A model generated the notes under the pieces. That model made no database searches, was not told the DNA's origin, and saw only the letters and a list, made by a program, of their open reading frames with translations. The position numbers and the translations under genes were made by a program. This document shows, piece after piece, positions 49,896-57,713 of a stretch of DNA of 64,000 bases. The stretch comes from Bdellovibrio bacteriovorus (GTDB lineage: Bacteria > Bdellovibrionota > Bdellovibrionia > Bdellovibrionales > Bdellovibrionaceae): the NCBI RefSeq assembly GCF_001592755.1, contig NZ_LUKF01000017.1, positions 186,001-250,000 of the forward strand, written 5' to 3'. The stretch's first letter is position 1. Each line of letters begins with the position of its first letter.

Positions 49896-49931
49896 AAAAG
49901 GAAAGGGCCTCGTCGGGTCCTGACGAAGCCC
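49892..49931 (-). terminator. terminator of the GH3-LysE-C45 operon
   Basis: GGGCCTCGTC (49905-49914) pairs with GACGAAGCCC (49922-49931) with one mismatch. The A-rich run 49894-49904 becomes the U-tract on the minus strand, so it ends the operon that finishes at 49938. Confidence 0.75.
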
Positions 49932-49937
49932 CCGGGA

Positions 49938-51917
49938 CTACTCGACAGTCCCTAAACGAATTTCTGAATCCAGGACAATGTATAGCTGCGCCTCTTCCTG
50001 AAGGCTCCACTGCAAGTCATAAAGTTCGCTCTGACTTGGATATTTTTGGATGAGTTCGGTCAGAGTCTTTTGCGCTTCCTTGCGAGAACTTTGTTGAAGT
50101 GCTTTGTTTTTATGTGTTTGTGGTTTCAATGTTTCCGCACGGAACTTCCACAGATCTAATTGAAACTTTTCATAGGGATGCAAAGTCGTGCCGATGCGGA
50201 CTGAGATTTCTTCCAGTCGTTCCAGGCTTTCGGTAAGATCTATGAACGCCTCGTCGCGCTTGCCTGCCATTATGGCCTTAGCCGCTCTCTGAACTTTGAT
50301 ACGGGCCCACATAAAGTGGTACGGGAACTCATAAATGCCGGCACTCCTAGCTTGTTCAGACGCCTGATTAATAAGACCTAAAGTTCTATCAAATCCCGCT
50401 AAGGTGTGATGATCAGCTTCGTTTGTCAGATACGCTTGAACATAATATTTCATGGAATCATACCAGGCCGTTTTTTCGGGATCCTCCCACGCTTTTTTTA
50501 CGCCCAAAACTTCGATGGGCGAATTTGGATTCGTACTTAAACGAAAGCCGATGAACGGAGAACGATTGGTAGGATAAGTTTCAGCGACACTCATCCACCA
50601 TTCTTGTCTTTCGGGAATCATCACATGAGTGGCCGCTGTATACACCTTCGTGGTGGTGCGACCGAAGCTGCGTGCACCCACAAGTTCATCGGTGTGACCG
50701 CTCAAGCGATTTATCACCCATTGCGCGTCAATATGGCCGAAGTCTTCCTTTATTGTTCTTTGAACATGAGAAAGACGGGCGCGAGTTTCCAGTGTTTTAT
50801 TCAGACTGTACTCATAACCTTCAGCGCTCGTTGCGGCTGCAACAAAATGGTTACTCTGGCCCAAGTAAGTGTTTTTTGAACGACGGGCCACGGCCACGGT
50901 ATTTCCACTAAGCTCTATAGAAGCGGCCTCATCGGTTTTAGAATCCGAAATAAAGAAGGTCCAAGCCCCAAAGCCCTTTCTTGTTTGAATCATGGCAATG
51001 GCTTCATTCAAAGTTTTAGCTTTCATTAAAATAGAGTGCAGTAAATAGGGGGCAACATCCGACTGGCCTGATTCGTAACGAATCTGTGTTCCTTCCGTCT
51101 GCAGTTCATGCAGACTTACTGCTAGACCGTAGTTGTTGATGCCACTGATGCCACCGGCATAGTGCAAACCCGCGGAAGCCAGACCTGCGGAGGTCATACC
51201 GTTGCGCTGACGATTGATCACAATGACTTGGTTTGTTTCATAAAAACCCAAAAGACCTGTATCAAAGTTTCTGCCATGAACGAGGGCTCCCTCCGTGGAG
51301 CTTGTCGCCGATGCACTAATCCCTGTGCACCCCATTTTAATAGAACGAAGACCTTGAGCGAGCTTCTTAAAAGGCTTTAAAAGAGCATGGCCCACAAAGT
51401 AAGGCGCACAGGAAGCAAACACCTTCATTTTTCCTTTGCGGGGATTTTCATCCAGCAATCTTTGCATGGAGTCCGTAAAGATTGAAAACTCCACCATGTA
51501 GTTGCTCTCTTCAAATTCACTCCAGCCGACCTTGCTGCCTGCATCTTTGAGGCCGCGATAAAGATTTTTAAGACCACTTTTAAATTCGTCAGACACACTG
51601 GCGCGATAGTTATCCATCACGCATTTTTTAATCAGAAGAATTTGCTCCCGGTCTTTAGGTGAAAGTTCGGCGAAGGCTCTTTGCACTTGAGTTTGCACGC
51701 CCGCTAAGACGCCTTTTTCAATTTCTTTGCGCAGAAATAGACCGTGATAATAAGCCGTTTCAGAAAATCCGCCTTGCAGATCTAAAACATGGACTTTGTT
51801 CTTTGCACCTTCGGCGCCACAAATAAAATGTTTTTGTCCCTGAAGCTCTTGCACCAACGTGCAGTCGGCATAGGAAAACACTGGAAGAAGCAATAATAAG
51901 GCGATGATATTTTTCAT
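49938..51917 (-). CDS. secreted C45-family (acyltransferase-type) Ntn enzyme
   Basis: This encodes 659 residues with a signal peptide (LLLLPVFSYA). The C45 signature is present: G196-C197 in KMGCTGISASAT, where penicillin acyltransferase cleaves itself to free a nucleophilic cysteine, then VHGRNFDTG and SGINNYGLAVS. The C-terminal 150 residues are helical, perhaps TPR-like. Family members form or break N-acyl amide bonds. It is the last gene of a coupled operon (ATGA overlap with lysE), after a LysE exporter and a GH3 ligase, which suggests the amide made by GH3 is its substrate or product (inference). Confidence 0.83.
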   Translation of the reverse strand: MKNIIALLLLLPVFSYADCTLVQELQGQKHFICGAEGAKNKVHVLDLQGGFSETAYYHGLFLRKEIEKGVLAGVQTQVQRAFAELSPKDREQILLIKKCVMDNYRASVSDEFKSGLKNLYRGLKDAGSKVGWSEFEESNYMVEFSIFTDSMQRLLDENPRKGKMKVFASCAPYFVGHALLKPFKKLAQGLRSIKMGCTGISASATSSTEGALVHGRNFDTGLLGFYETNQVIVINRQRNGMTSAGLASAGLHYAGGISGINNYGLAVSLHELQTEGTQIRYESGQSDVAPYLLHSILMKAKTLNEAIAMIQTRKGFGAWTFFISDSKTDEAASIELSGNTVAVARRSKNTYLGQSNHFVAAATSAEGYEYSLNKTLETRARLSHVQRTIKEDFGHIDAQWVINRLSGHTDELVGARSFGRTTTKVYTAATHVMIPERQEWWMSVAETYPTNRSPFIGFRLSTNPNSPIEVLGVKKAWEDPEKTAWYDSMKYYVQAYLTNEADHHTLAGFDRTLGLINQASEQARSAGIYEFPYHFMWARIKVQRAAKAIMAGKRDEAFIDLTESLERLEEISVRIGTTLHPYEKFQLDLWKFRAETLKPQTHKNKALQQSSRKEAQKTLTELIQKYPSQSELYDLQWSLQEEAQLYIVLDSEIRLGTVE

Positions 51918-52501
51918 AAAATTCCCAATGAGAGATAGGCTGAAAAAGTTAAAAATCCACAGGCCGCTACAACTTCAATTTTGCGAAGAAAACCTTGAAG
52001 GTGATTTTTGAATTGTCGGATTGTAAACAGCAGTAAAATAAAACTGACTAGGAAGGCGGCCAGATAAGTGATGGCGCCCATCCACAGAGTCAAACCGTTT
52101 TCGTTTGCGACATTAGCGAAGAGGCCCGCATAAATAAAAACCAGATGAAAGTTCGCCATCGTTAAAAGAAAGCTTTTCTTAAATGACGGGCGAATCAGCA
52201 GCTCTTCTTTCAGAAAAGAACTGTCAGTGTTTTTTTGAAGGAAAAGAATTTTTACCGAGTAAAGCACTAAGCATAAGACAGTCAGCACGGTCAAAAGGGC
52301 TTTAAGCCAAGCCTCTTGAAGTAAAGGACTCTTTAACAACATCAAAGCCAAGGCAATATATACGATATCTCCCAGAAGAAAGCCCGCAATGGACTTCCAG
52401 GGCCAAGAACGGTCGCGCACCAAGCTGCGAATAATATTAAAACTCGCCGGCCCCAGAGCAAATGCAGAAAGAAATCCGATGATCATCAGCCAAAGAATCA
52501 T
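51914..52501 (-). CDS. LysE/RhtB-type exporter
   Basis: This encodes 195 residues and six membrane segments. The opening FLSAFALGPASFNIIRS matches the LysE family's G-x-P-G-P-x region in variant form (no second proline-glycine). Family members export amino acids and derivatives such as homoserine lactone. Both neighbours overlap by ATGA, so translation is coupled. Its place between an acyl-acid ligase and an acyl amide enzyme makes an amino acid conjugate a plausible cargo (inference). Confidence 0.82.
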   Translation of the reverse strand: MILWLMIIGFLSAFALGPASFNIIRSLVRDRSWPWKSIAGFLLGDIVYIALALMLLKSPLLQEAWLKALLTVLTVLCLVLYSVKILFLQKNTDSSFLKEELLIRPSFKKSFLLTMANFHLVFIYAGLFANVANENGLTLWMGAITYLAAFLVSFILLLFTIRQFKNHLQGFLRKIEVVAACGFLTFSAYLSLGIL

Positions 52502-54012
52502 TGGACTTCTCCGGCGATATGAGAACGCATGAAATTCAAGTATTCTTCAGCGGTTTCAAAAGTTGTTTTTAGTTTAAACTGGCCGCGGCTGCGATTGCTT
52601 TCAAAGTATTTTTGCAGGTAATCAGCGCTCACGATGGAAACTTGCGCAGGTCCCAGAACGCCGACTTCGCGACAGTCTTTATAATCTCCATTTAAGCGTT
52701 GCATTTCTTCATCCACGGTTTTTGCTAACTGTTCCACATTGACGTCGGCGTGTGCCGGAACAAAAAGTGTCCAGTGGTAGGACGCTTTCCCTTCATTCAT
52801 AACCGGGGAAAGAAAGAAATGACGAAGGTCCACATTACGAAGTTTTTTTGCCGCCAGGTAGCAGTCTAAAATCTCATCGTCACTGACTTTTTCTGCCGCC
52901 AAGTTCATGCCGGTACTTTTTCTGCCAACAAATTCGAACACCAGGTCTTCGTTATTTTGCTGAAAACTAATGACGTCTTTCATTGAATAGTGAATAAGAC
53001 CATTTGGCGTGCCGACATTGATATAATAAGGCACACCCATTTCAATTTCATGAAGACCCAGGGACTTTTTATCGCCCAGAACAGGGGTGAAGGAATAAAG
53101 AAGATCCGGATTTAAGAAATATTTCTGGCGTCCGTTTTGGTATTTTTCATAAGGAAGACCGATCGCCGCTTCGGTGGCAGCATAAACGCCGTAATAGTTT
53201 AACTCATGGCCCACCAGACGGTTGAGTCTTTCGGTGTATTGTTTAATCGGAGTTGCGGCGTAAACAAAGACTTTAAGTCGAGGCCAGATTTCATTGATGG
53301 TTTTCTTGCCGGTTTTTTGCAGAATCGCTTCAAAAATACTAATGATGTACGTCGGAATACCGCTGACGACTTGAATGTCTTCTTTCAAAGCCTCTTCGAT
53401 AAGCATGTCGATTTTACGATCCCAGTTTGAAATCGCCAAAACTTCTTTGGAAGGAAACGTATTTTTAGCCAATGCTTTAGGAACACGTGTGCTCAGAATT
53501 CCAGAGATATAGCCAAATTTGATATTGTTCTGAGTGTAAAGGTAAGGGTCCGAACCAAAAGTTAAGCGGCCGACTTTTAGAAAATTGATGTCGGGTTCTA
53601 GGGTGCTTAACTTACTTGCGATGCGCTTTTGTGATTTCAAAAACATGCGAATCATGCGCTCATTGTAGGGAACACGTTTGCTGTCTTTGCCGGAAGTCCC
53701 TGAAGACAGGCCACAGTATTCAACCTCGTCTTTAAAGAGAATGTTCTTATGGCCGGCAGCAATCATATCTACGTAAGGTGCGTAATCATCGTAACCATAG
53801 ACCGGAACGTGATTCACGAACTCTTCGTAATTTTGAATGTGCGCTAGGCGCAGATCTTTGTAGATACGTGTTCCATTTAACGAGCGTTTTAGCTGTTTAA
53901 AGTTTTTCTCTTGCTTTTCCAGCAGGTCAGCCTGGCTGACGCTCATATATTGAGAATAAGTCTTTAAGTATTTTTGCCCTAAGCCATGCACGACAGAATC
54001 CACCGCAAACAT
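52498..54012 (-). CDS. GH3-family acyl-acid amido synthetase
   Basis: This encodes 504 residues starting MFAVDSVVHG at 54012, after GAAGGAG. The ATP motif CGLSSGTSGKDSKRVPY (SSGTSG at 103-108) and later GVYAATEA, EMGVPYYINVGTPNGLIHYSMKD are typical of the GH3/ANL-like fold. Plant GH3 enzymes adenylate carboxylic acids and join them to amino acids; bacterial members are largely unstudied. The open frame above 54012 overlaps the divergent regulator and is not used. First gene of the GH3-LysE-C45 operon. Confidence 0.88.
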   Translation of the reverse strand: MFAVDSVVHGLGQKYLKTYSQYMSVSQADLLEKQEKNFKQLKRSLNGTRIYKDLRLAHIQNYEEFVNHVPVYGYDDYAPYVDMIAAGHKNILFKDEVEYCGLSSGTSGKDSKRVPYNERMIRMFLKSQKRIASKLSTLEPDINFLKVGRLTFGSDPYLYTQNNIKFGYISGILSTRVPKALAKNTFPSKEVLAISNWDRKIDMLIEEALKEDIQVVSGIPTYIISIFEAILQKTGKKTINEIWPRLKVFVYAATPIKQYTERLNRLVGHELNYYGVYAATEAAIGLPYEKYQNGRQKYFLNPDLLYSFTPVLGDKKSLGLHEIEMGVPYYINVGTPNGLIHYSMKDVISFQQNNEDLVFEFVGRKSTGMNLAAEKVSDDEILDCYLAAKKLRNVDLRHFFLSPVMNEGKASYHWTLFVPAHADVNVEQLAKTVDEEMQRLNGDYKDCREVGVLGPAQVSIVSADYLQKYFESNRSRGQFKLKTTFETAEEYLNFMRSHIAGEVQ

Positions 54013-54098
54013 AAAAAGTCTCCTTCTTGTTGATGAAGGAAATTTATTTCGGTTTAGATTCAATGTCGCGCAGTACCCTTGACAACTTTGTGGTAATT

Positions 54099-54127
54099 CT
54101 GTCGAACCGAGCAACTTCGGTTGACAG
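54099..54127. promoter_or_regulatory. dyad operator between GH3 operon and TetR gene
   Basis: AACCGA (54105-54110) and TCGGTT (54117-54122) are inverted repeats around six bases, extended by CTGTC (54099-54103) and GACAG (54123-54127) with one extra base on the left. It lies between divergent genes, where a TetR-family autoregulator would bind. Confidence 0.55.
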
Positions 54128-54156
54128 AAAAGCGGGGTTTTTGTCAAAATTGCAGT

Positions 54157-54660
54157 ATGGCAACACAGTCCAAAGAAGATATCTATTTCGCTGTCTGCAA
54201 CGCAATCCTCAAAATGGAAGTGGCGAAAGGTCATCTGGCCTGGACTCTTTCAGACATTTCCCGAGAATCGGGTGTGACCCGTTCCTTGATCTATTACTAC
54301 TTCGGGAAAGAGAAAAAAACCGCTCTCGAAGAGGCCTATAAGTTCGTGATTTCTAACTTCTGGAACATGGAGCGCACAAAAACCATGGGGATTCGGGACC
54401 GTTTAAAGCAGGTTCTTGAAGACACCAAGAAAATGCCATTCCTATTCGTGCTTTATTACTTAGAAAAAAATAAAGAGGGCGAGATCGGAAAAATGATCCG
54501 TGATGCCGAGTCGATGCTTTTACAAGCCTTAAAAAAAGAATTTCCTAAGCTCAGTGAGACTCAGATCTTGGAAGTGTATCTGAAAGAGCTGGGAGCTATT
54601 ACCTTCCAGCTGCCTTCAGAAAAAGTATCAGACCTATTTGAAGATTATATCAGTCGTTAG
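54157..54660 (+). CDS. TetR-family transcriptional regulator
   Basis: This encodes 167 residues from the ATG at 54157 (MATQSKEDIYF). The helix-turn-helix is WTLSDISRESGVTRSLIYYYFGKEK. The C-terminal domain is short. It is divergent from the GH3 operon across a dyad and convergent with the MMPL gene, with a four-base stop overlap. It probably controls the GH3 operon in response to an acyl-type ligand (inference). A TTG at 54121 is less likely because it would put the operator within the coding region. Confidence 0.88.
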   Translation: MATQSKEDIYFAVCNAILKMEVAKGHLAWTLSDISRESGVTRSLIYYYFGKEKKTALEEAYKFVISNFWNMERTKTMGIRDRLKQVLEDTKKMPFLFVLYYLEKNKEGEIGKMIRDAESMLLQALKKEFPKLSETQILEVYLKELGAITFQLPSEKVSDLFEDYISR

Positions 54661-55442
54661 TTCTCAGAAAGCGCTTTAGGCGTAAAGCGCGAAGTCTTTA
54701 ATCCCTGATCCAGTTTGACCCCAGAAAGAGTGATTTCTGTTCCGCGCTTGTTTTGCATGTTGCGGATCTTGATCTTTGAAGCGCGCCACTTCGTCGGAGA
54801 CACTTTCTTATAGCCAACAACGTCGAGCACTTTCAAAAGCTTTCCTTGCTTATCATAACACTCAGACTTCATGGGCAGATATTCATCGGCTTGGACGAAG
54901 CTGATGATTTTAGAGTAATTGGCTGAAGTGGAATTCACGTCACTCTCGATAAGGAAATATTTCTTTCCCTTCACCTCGACCGTTTTTTTAAGAATATTCT
55001 TCGCACCTTGTTCGCGATTGAAGTCAAAATCTTCGGTGCTGAGCTCGGAACCCAGAATACCTCCTTGGCCGCTTTCGCCAGTCAAGCGACGAGTCTGTTT
55101 AGAGGACGGCAGATAAATCCACTTTTCTTCTTGGTCATTTTTCAGCGTGGCTAATAAAGCCGTGCCTTTTAAATCTTGTGGCTTCTGCATGCGCACCATC
55201 AGGTAATGCTCTTTTTTACTGGGGCTTAGGCGCCAAATATGCATTTCACGATCTTTGCTAGAACCATCTGCTTCGATGATCTTCATCGAAACTTGAAACT
55301 CTTCGTCTTTAGAGCGCAGACGTTGGCTCATCTGTTCACCAATCTGCTCAACGGTGGGCGCGTTATCCGCCTGTTGCGCGAAAGTGGGAGTCGGTGAGAA
55401 CGAGATGAAAAAAGCCATAAAGAGCGCAGATGCTGTAGCCAT
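54657..55442 (-). CDS. internal in-frame start for the LolA-like domain
   Basis: Inside the MMPL frame an ATG at 55442 (codon 758) has AAGGAG six bases upstream and begins a complete signal peptide ending TFAQQ. It would yield a separate 261-residue exported LolA-like protein without any stop between the two parts. Both a full fusion and a free form may be made, or signal peptidase may cut the fusion. This is an alternative product, not a second locus. Confidence 0.5.
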   Translation of the reverse strand: MATASALFMAFFISFSPTPTFAQQADNAPTVEQIGEQMSQRLRSKDEEFQVSMKIIEADGSSKDREMHIWRLSPSKKEHYLMVRMQKPQDLKGTALLATLKNDQEEKWIYLPSSKQTRRLTGESGQGGILGSELSTEDFDFNREQGAKNILKKTVEVKGKKYFLIESDVNSTSANYSKIISFVQADEYLPMKSECYDKQGKLLKVLDVVGYKKVSPTKWRASKIKIRNMQNKRGTEITLSGVKLDQGLKTSRFTPKALSEN

Positions 55443-57713
55443 GATTTTCTCCTTTTTCCACGGTACTGAGTTTAGAAGCCATGGGCAACTTTTCAACAGT
55501 GTCGGCAAAAGAATCAAATCACCCACGAGTCCAGCGAGCATTGACAAGAGCATGTAGAAACCAAAGATGCGGTTCATAGCAAAGTAAGACGCCATGAAAA
55601 CCGAGAATCCAGCGAGTAAAGTCATGCTGGAAATCAAGCAAGGGTTTCCCTCTCTCCACAGGGTCTTTTCGATTTCAAGTTCACGAGAACGGGGGTATTT
55701 TTTCTGAATCGCGCGCAGGCGTTCCAAAAGATAAACCGTGTTGTTAAACGCCAAGCCCAGGGCGATGGAAAAGATAATCGCGACACTAGGCTTGATCGGG
55801 GTTTGCGAAAGCGCCAAGAATCCCAGCAAAGCTGCAGGTGGAACCAGATTCGGGATGCAGGCCACTAAAGCCCAGCGCACAGAGCGGAACACAAAAATTA
55901 ACAGCAAACAGATTGCCGCCATGGACTGCCAGAAACCGAAAATCAGTTCATGCGAAAGTTCGTTATTCAAGTGATGGATGGTGGATCCCATGCCGGTGAC
56001 TTCGACTTTCAACTCAGGAAACTTTTGTTCGGTCAGTTGTTTGATATTTAAAACGAGAGAATGCAATTCGTTCCCCGGAAGATCTTGAGTGCGTACGGAA
56101 ATGCGCGTGTTAGATGAATCCGTGTTCAAAAAATTCTTTAAAGGGCTGTTGCTAGAAAGGGAGTATAAGAAGAAGACTTCTGCCGTGGAGGAACGGCTGG
56201 CGGGCAGACGTGAGTGATGGATGTTTGCTGCCGCAACGAGGTCCGGAAGGCCGACGACACTTCCCACGCCTTTCATCGCGCGGATGTCCGAAAGAAGCTG
56301 ATCAAGACGCGCCAATAACTTCGGATCATTCCAAGTTTCTGAAGAGCCTTTCAATTCGACATCAATAGGAATCATGCCCCCGAGTTCTTTATCGATAGTC
56401 TCTGTGGATAAACGGACTTGATGGTTTGCCGGCAAATCATCAAAGAGTCGAGCGGACCAAGAAAGACTTTGTCCTTTAATGGCTAAAGCAGAAGAAACTA
56501 AAATAATCAGAAAGGCCCAAACGCCAGAGCGGCGGAAAAGATAAAGGCCCCAGCGCGCTTTACTCCAAGCCCACAGGCGAGCTTTTGGTCCAGGCAAGAA
56601 GTACAACATCGGAAATAATAATAAAGTCGTAACAACCCAGCCCGTCATAATGGAAATAGCTGCCGTGATTCCGTAATCGCGGATCAAGGGCACTTTCACC
56701 GTCAACAAAGCGAGGAAGCCTATCATCGTCGTCATGGAGGCAATGAAGTTGGGTCCAAGGAGAGTTTTGAAAGTATAGGTCACAAGTTCATGATGGGTCG
56801 CATGAGGCTGATTCTTGCGCTCTTCCGAATAGCGCAGCAACGTATGTATACACAGCGAGACGACGTCCACCGTCGTCAGAATGGGAATTGTGCTCGAAAG
56901 AATTGAAAACGGATAACCCGCCAGTGCCATGATCGCTAAAACAATAATGTTCGCGCAGAGAATCACGACAAATGAAATGATCAGTGGCGACCAGTTTGAA
57001 AAAATTAAACCTAATACTAAGAAACAGGCTAAAAATCCCAAGACGACGAAATTGCGAATCTCTGTCTGTAGCAGCACACCTACGTCTGTCTGCACAGCGG
57101 GAGTTCCGCCGATTTCTACCTTAGAAAAAGGAACGGCCGCGTTTGCGGTGACTTCTAAATTCTGGCGAAGATGTAAGATCTCTGAAGTATTCAGCGACTT
57201 CACATTGACAATGACAGAAGCCGTGCGCCCATCCTTAGAAACTAGAGTCGGTGAAATAAGAGGATTATTAGTAGTCTCGGTGGCCCATTTTTCCGAAGGA
57301 AGATTTTTTAATAAAGGTCCTACACTCAGACCATCGTCGCTATTGATGGCACCTTGAACAGTCGCCAGGCTTAACGTGTTCTTAACACCAGGAAAGTGAG
57401 CGAGAAGTTCTGTGAGTCTTTCTAAGCTTTGAATTTTATCTTTTTCAAACCAGGTCTCGCTAGGATGAGAAATCTTTGCTGTAATGATGAACGGTTGTGA
57501 ATCTGGAAGTTGAAAAAGCTGTCTTGTATGTTCATCTCTCTTCAATAGCGGATTATCCTGAGGAAGAAACTGCTTCAAGCTGTACTGAGTTTGCAATTTA
57601 GGAAGAGCAAATAAGCTTAATAACGTAACTACAAAAACTAAAAGTAAAGTTGAAATGGAGATTCTTTTGACGGAATCAGGGAAGTTCGTTTTTTCCAATT
57701 TCGTTTTCTTCAT
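54657..57713 (-). CDS. MMPL/RND exporter fused to a LolA-like periplasmic domain
   Basis: This encodes 1018 residues. Residues 15-750 are an RND/MMPL exporter with two repeats, each with one large periplasmic loop and several membrane segments (LGFLACFLVLGLIFSNWSPL, ILTTVDVVSLCIHTLLRY; then SMAAICLLLIFVFRSVRWAL, SIALGLAFNNTVYLLERLR). From residue 758 the frame continues into a signal-peptide-like segment (MATASALFMAFFISFSPTPTFA) and a LolA-like lipoprotein-sorting domain (KWIYLPSSKQTRRLTG, DEYLPMKSECYDKQGKLLKVLD). These parts are usually separate genes. Likely job: moving a lipid or lipoprotein to the outer membrane. It is divergent from the TULIP-like gene. Confidence 0.88.
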   Translation of the reverse strand: MKKTKLEKTNFPDSVKRISISTLLLVFVVTLLSLFALPKLQTQYSLKQFLPQDNPLLKRDEHTRQLFQLPDSQPFIITAKISHPSETWFEKDKIQSLERLTELLAHFPGVKNTLSLATVQGAINSDDGLSVGPLLKNLPSEKWATETTNNPLISPTLVSKDGRTASVIVNVKSLNTSEILHLRQNLEVTANAAVPFSKVEIGGTPAVQTDVGVLLQTEIRNFVVLGFLACFLVLGLIFSNWSPLIISFVVILCANIIVLAIMALAGYPFSILSSTIPILTTVDVVSLCIHTLLRYSEERKNQPHATHHELVTYTFKTLLGPNFIASMTTMIGFLALLTVKVPLIRDYGITAAISIMTGWVVTTLLLFPMLYFLPGPKARLWAWSKARWGLYLFRRSGVWAFLIILVSSALAIKGQSLSWSARLFDDLPANHQVRLSTETIDKELGGMIPIDVELKGSSETWNDPKLLARLDQLLSDIRAMKGVGSVVGLPDLVAAANIHHSRLPASRSSTAEVFFLYSLSSNSPLKNFLNTDSSNTRISVRTQDLPGNELHSLVLNIKQLTEQKFPELKVEVTGMGSTIHHLNNELSHELIFGFWQSMAAICLLLIFVFRSVRWALVACIPNLVPPAALLGFLALSQTPIKPSVAIIFSIALGLAFNNTVYLLERLRAIQKKYPRSRELEIEKTLWREGNPCLISSMTLLAGFSVFMASYFAMNRIFGFYMLLSMLAGLVGDLILLPTLLKSCPWLLNSVPWKKEKIMATASALFMAFFISFSPTPTFAQQADNAPTVEQIGEQMSQRLRSKDEEFQVSMKIIEADGSSKDREMHIWRLSPSKKEHYLMVRMQKPQDLKGTALLATLKNDQEEKWIYLPSSKQTRRLTGESGQGGILGSELSTEDFDFNREQGAKNILKKTVEVKGKKYFLIESDVNSTSANYSKIISFVQADEYLPMKSECYDKQGKLLKVLDVVGYKKVSPTKWRASKIKIRNMQNKRGTEITLSGVKLDQGLKTSRFTPKALSEN

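Follow-up and report, generated by a model that had tools for sequence, protein, structure and literature searches.

GH3 enzymes link acids to amino acids as amides, and the Ntn relatives of C45 proteins cleave or transfer amides; PvdQ of the pyoverdine route is a Ser-Ntn enzyme. GH3-dependent synthesis of N-acyl amino acids is itself already known. The N-acyl-ornithine synthetase OlsH, described in 2025, joins free fatty acids to ornithine with ATP and Mg2+, loses its activity when S115 is changed to alanine, and belongs, like OlsI, to the route by which Singulisphaera acidiphila makes ornithine lipids (PMC12493201). A periplasmic Ntn step after export is known from pyoverdine maturation, where acylated ferribactin is exported and then deacylated by the periplasmic Ntn acylase PvdQ (PMC6206403).

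The locus described here lies in Bdellovibrio bacteriovorus, in a window of 64,000 nucleotides of contig NZ_LUKF01000017.1 (the whole stretch of DNA that was analysed), and places genes for a GH3 ligase, a LysE-type transporter and a C45 Ntn enzyme beside a divergent TetR-type regulator gene. The original prediction knew of no described system with this combination, and no earlier description of GH3, LysE and C45 together was found in the open-access literature searched. The cassette genes are likewise unmentioned in the literature searched for GH3 with Bdellovibrio and for GH3 with LysE, Bdellovibrio gene-function papers included.

Gene layout and predicted proteins

The features of the locus are collected in Table 1. 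The arrangement is the one first read from the sequence: three minus-strand genes with 4-nt overlaps (C45/LysE at 51914-51917, LysE/GH3 at 52498-52501), an intrinsic terminator past the last of them, and a TetR gene that diverges across a dyad (TTCTGTCGAACCGA...TCGGTTGACAGAA) in the intergenic region. Two starts were corrected. The mechanical GH3 open reading frame began at 54234; the ATG at 54012 is preceded by an AAGGAGA ribosome site and is the start also used by GH3 homologues across the genus. The TetR gene was set to begin with the ATG at 54157, and the two corrections together fix the limits of the divergent promoter region. All four families score above their curated Pfam cut-offs and, since only one GH3 gene is present in the genome, along with two genes each for LysE and AAT/C45, a chance adjacency is unlikely.

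Table 1. Features of the locus and their predicted products, with positions in the window
Feature	Position	Strand or setting	Size or structure
Intrinsic terminator of operon	49903..49933	minus	12-bp stem, then T run
C45 (AAT) Cys-Ntn proenzyme	49938..51917	minus	659 aa
LysE-type transporter	51914..52501	minus	195 aa
GH3-family acyl-acid amido synthetase	52498..54012	minus	504 aa
Divergent promoter/operator region	54013..54156	between GH3 and TetR starts	144 bp
TetR-family regulator	54157..54660	plus, divergent	167 aa

Within the promoter region, the repeats TTGACAG, CTGTCRA and TTGTCAAA align in 14 members of the genus and in one bacterium from another genus, and a sigma-70-like site lies at 54121-54150 on the TetR strand. 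The regulator itself is a marginal match to TetR_N (25.5 bits in Pfam, cut-off 24). Its orthologue adjoins the module in most of the 27 module genomes examined, with a weak match in G336, and was not found beside it in two of them, G108 and G111.

The GH3 protein exceeds the Pfam cut-offs for its three domains (GH3 92, GH3_M 24.6 and GH3_C 37.8 bits) and carries the motifs SSGTSGKDSK (residues 103-112), YAATE (277-281) and NGLIHYSMKD (337-346), in which S104, G105, T106, Y277, T280, E281, N337, G338, Y342 and D346 are invariant among 11 sequences. Its structure model (pLDDT 82) aligned with Arabidopsis GH3.6 (9fwd) over 447 residues with a Z score of 33.6; the top solved structures were without exception GH3 ligases of plants (Z up to 33.6), followed by PaaK-type ligases. 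With all three nucleotide-binding motifs and the fold intact, the protein is predicted to be an amide ligase. To our knowledge, the characterised plant GH3 enzymes act on hormones and benzoates and not on fatty acids, which would count against a fatty-acid substrate for the module enzyme.

The transporter (LysE Pfam 37.4 bits, cut-off 25.6) has six transmembrane segments predicted from hydropathy. Charge bias marks loops 1-2, 3-4 and 5-6 as the positive ones, so that an N-out/C-out orientation, with both ends in the periplasm, is predicted. A specific assignment as threonine/homoserine exporter (TIGR00949) was rejected at 37 bits against a cut-off of 183.95. One protein of 811 aa, encoded by Bdellovibrionales bacterium GWA1_52_35, combines a LysE domain with the C45 enzyme. 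The Pfam LysE profile itself does not recognise the N-terminus of this fusion protein, and its homology was therefore established through the LysE proteins of the module (phmmer E 9e-17 to L077, which is itself above the Pfam LysE cut-off; hhalign 97.7%). Charge bias sets the C45 part of the fusion outside, in the periplasm, in agreement with the signal peptide (MKNIIALLLLLPVFSYA-DC) borne by the free C45 proteins, so that the predicted periplasmic location is supported from two sides.

The C45 protein matched NCBIfam NF040521 with 95.6 bits (cut-off 85) and PF03417 (AAT) with 40.4 (cut-off 23.2). It is laid out as a signal peptide (residues 1 to about 17), a prodomain up to G196, the nucleophile C197 and an Ntn domain to about residue 475, while the last third of the chain is a TPR-like helical domain that closes with T-[VA]-E (window 49938-49946), the T and E being invariant in 17 sequences. 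The Cys nucleophile after a prodomain, the RNxD motif and the Ntn fold are all present. Among the same number of sequences, C197, R216, N217, D219, N356 and R420 are invariant, and we take N356 and R420 to match the catalytic Asn and Arg of the relatives. Four further cysteines (C19, C33, C99 and C170) are also invariant, which would fit periplasmic disulphides. A phmmer search of PDB sequences with the C45 protein gave no match, and a profile search of PDB gave a weak match to NAAA only (E 0.097), beginning exactly at the nucleophile. The structure model (pLDDT 85.6, pTM 0.87) resembled isopenicillin N acyltransferase (IAT) most closely, with Z 33.5 over 336 residues, then the NAAA precursor (27.7) and acid ceramidase (26.6); bile salt hydrolases and penicillin V acylases were further matches. 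In the mature-chain matches (NAAA, acid ceramidase and bile salt hydrolases), the residue aligned with 197 is the first of the beta chain. Taken together, motifs and model point to a Cys-Ntn enzyme, probably autoprocessed, that would act on amides through Cys197.

Distribution, linkage and empty sites

The original prediction had named co-occurrence in other Bdellovibrionota as its check, and a survey of 369 Bdellovibrionota genomes bears on it directly. With the GH3 clade delimited at 300 bits or more (next match 192) and the C45 clade at 742 bits or more (next 428), both clades occur in exactly the same 27 genomes, these being raw genome counts in which shared ancestry is still contained. 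The carriers represent 10 genera of several families, and include Bdellovibrio, a second genus of its family, a Pseudobdellovibrionaceae bacterium, Bacteriovorax/Bacteriovoracaceae and deeper lineages; strain kdesi has the module. GH3 and C45 genes are linked in 25 of the 27, and the other two (G013 and G364) retain both in separate places. LysE is also linked in 25, and is missing from the linked locus in G013 and G361. Pairwise protein distances are strongly correlated (r = 0.982 for GH3 and C45, 0.970 for GH3 and TetR, 0.951 for GH3 and LysE). Presence is polymorphic in two genera, with 14 of 24 and 4 of 5 members as carriers, and there GH3 and C45 vary together. Loss of neighbourhood in relatives, or of catalytic residues, would have spoken against a common function; the neighbours are kept, and the GH3 motifs and C197 are intact. 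In a scan of genome contigs with two short patterns, which distant copies could escape, the C45 clade appeared only in Bdellovibrionota-type records.

Most carriers in the genus share the gene order MMPL - TetR - GH3 - LysE - C45 - SBP3 - MnmC2 - MnmL. In five genus-mates (G007, G014, G016, G018 and G025) SBP3 stands next to MMPL and exactly the four cassette genes are absent, which sets the borders of the unit at TetR and C45. The MMPL-LolA gene (54657-57713) and the SBP3, MnmC2 and MnmL genes were considered as parts of the cassette and rejected, as they stay when the cassette is absent and are not adjacent to it in other families. The first of these encodes 1018 aa, an MMPL/RND transporter fused to a LolA-like domain, and most genus-mates have it whether or not they carry the cassette. 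At the G007 site (L148:6913-7512), a single 199-aa protein, judged by eye to be SAM methyltransferase-like, occupies the cassette's place. Ten of the 24 genus members do without the unit, which is thus not essential for predation. Eight genomes encode C45 relatives (301-428 bits) but no member of this GH3 clade, so that C45 can work without it. That the four genes form one inherited, co-working unit is well supported.

GH3 genes also occur in other settings. A second, distinct GH3 of genus-mates (L037:2914-9447, L038:5782-12258) is in an operon with a Rieske oxygenase, an NQR2/RnfD-like membrane protein, which in L037 bears FG-GAP/ASPIC repeats, and a protein of 373-375 aa with no Pfam match where tested. 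Elsewhere in Bdellovibrionota, GH3 genes lie beside or near MMPL-like transporter genes (L079:4605-8481, L082:582-8214) or adjoin a FabH-like ketosynthase gene (L080:6999-10392), the families being assigned by eye; these three contexts suggest further acyl-amino-acid pathways. On plasmids of Bernardetia and Bacteroides, neither LysE nor C45 was found in the GH3 neighbourhoods.

A candidate pathway and its competitors

On balance, the cassette probably deals with an N-acyl amino acid on both sides of the inner membrane, with GH3 making the compound, LysE exporting it and C45 breaking or transferring its amide. Judging from its family and motifs, the cytoplasmic GH3 enzyme would activate a carboxylic acid with ATP, most likely a free fatty acid, and join it as an amide to an amino acid. 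The LysE-type carrier would export this product, or part of it, into the periplasm. There the Cys197 enzyme, whose location has the better support and whose chemistry is that expected of the family, would take the amide, form an acyl-enzyme and pass the acyl group to water or another acceptor. TetR would repress both divergent promoters and would probably be released by an acyl compound. The original prediction is borne out in part: the co-occurrence, the empty sites, the fusion and the intact motifs support one make-export-process module, while of the roles proposed for the product, as a possible signal, surfactant or weapon against prey, the last found no support.

Several observations weigh against this account, among them the two linked loci that lack LysE and the eight genomes with C45 in which this GH3 clade is missing. 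A further point against it is that an amide made only to be hydrolysed would gain the cell nothing, unless the acyl group had another acceptor or the compound served as a signal. For this reason, and since acid-activating ligases are neighbours of C45 genes in pigment-type clusters of Bacteroidota too, transfer is slightly favoured over hydrolysis as the C45 reaction. Carried further, and here only tentatively, the acyl amino acid could be a shuttle for periplasmic acylation independent of CoA, ACP and phospholipid donors: GH3 would load a free fatty acid onto an amino acid, LysE would carry this activated carrier across the inner membrane, and C45 would be the transferase that passes the acyl group to an envelope lipid, a peptide or an amino compound in the periplasm.

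The OlsH/OlsI precedent invites a different explanation, a two-step synthesis of aminolipid in which GH3 would make a lyso-aminolipid, LysE would bring it to the outer face, and C45 would add a second fatty acid as an O-acyltransferase, so filling the part of OlsI, the unrelated alpha/beta-hydrolase found beside OlsH in planctomycetes. The nearest fold to C45 is indeed that of an acyltransferase, IAT, and C45/AAT genes have acyl-activating ligase and MMPL/acyltransferase genes as neighbours in plasmid clusters of Bacteroidota as well as in flavobacterial pigment clusters (PMC5932025). Such a pathway is nevertheless unlikely, as the GH3 protein scores far under the OlsH cut-off, and 23 of 24 genus genomes carry an OlsB-like gene (PF13444) whether or not they have the module, so that amino lipids may arise in another way. 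We also know of no C45 enzyme that O-acylates a lipid in the periplasm.

As the hosts are predators living on prey contents, C45 might instead attack amides of the prey or the envelope in the periplasm and set free their amino acids or acids, without acting on the GH3 product, while GH3 would conjugate surplus free acids with amino acids and LysE would remove the conjugates or free amino acids. This kind of salvage or detoxification would suit a GH3 ligase that takes free acids and not CoA or ACP esters (the OlsH paper, PMC12493201) and a LysE protein whose relatives export amino acids, but it is improbable: by itself it leaves the constant pairing of C45 with GH3 and the LysE-C45 fusion unexplained, and the genus members without the unit manage without it. 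Quite improbable, too, is a self-contained signal circuit in which GH3 makes an N-acyl amino acid, LysE releases it, TetR senses it and C45 hydrolyses it, much as NAAA ends N-acylethanolamine signals. All four functions would then lie in one unit that genomes have complete or not at all, the operator-like repeats are conserved, and the C45 model does resemble NAAA and acid ceramidase; however, a C45 enzyme transcribed together with the synthase would degrade the circuit's own signal, the regulator was not found beside the module in the two genomes mentioned above, and no receptor or density-dependent behaviour is known.

Comparison with described systems

The nearest characterised relative of the cassette GH3 is OlsH. 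In both systems the operon pairs a bacterial GH3 ligase with a hydrolase-fold enzyme, and the essential motif-1 serine of OlsH, S115, corresponds to S104 of the cassette protein. An identification as OlsH was nonetheless rejected: the cassette protein reaches 179.5 bits with NCBIfam NF052613, against a cut-off of 620, and the partners differ, with OlsI (alpha/beta-hydrolase) and OlsG in the OlsH operon, and neither of these but LysE and a periplasmic Cys-Ntn enzyme beside the cassette GH3. Bacterial GH3 proteins are widespread, yet OlsH is the sole one found here with a demonstrated bacterial role; similarly, C45 proenzymes are common and have few known substrates. In the four-gene unit, each family acquires a defined partner and a product that can be tested, and its hosts are genetically tractable predators whose empty-site strains provide natural controls for metabolomics.

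With isopenicillin N acyltransferase (C45/AAT), NAAA and acid ceramidase, the cassette C45 shares the predicted fold and proenzyme layout, a Cys nucleophile that opens the beta chain and the RNxD motif, but identity is only about 11-18%. It differs from them in being secreted and bacterial, and in its long C-terminal helical domain with the T-[VA]-E end.

Also among the closest known systems are pigment-type clusters of Bacteroidota (Aureispira pAUEa and Persicobacter pPP6; PMC5932025), which like the cassette hold a C45 gene, an acid-activating ligase and an exporter gene. Their ligase, however, is AMP-binding and not GH3, the exporter is MMPL and not LysE, and the surroundings are of aryl polyene type. 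On the Aureispira and Persicobacter plasmids inspected (L162, L163), C45 lies beside genes for an AMP-binding ligase, an FAD oxidoreductase and MMPL/acyltransferase proteins, gene sets that resemble aryl polyene/flexirubin pigment clusters. The pyoverdine route, finally, acts on a non-ribosomal peptide and uses the ABC exporter PvdE, and its parts are unrelated to those of the cassette; it would nevertheless work like the pathway proposed here, with acylation in the cytoplasm, export, and a final step by a periplasmic Ntn enzyme.
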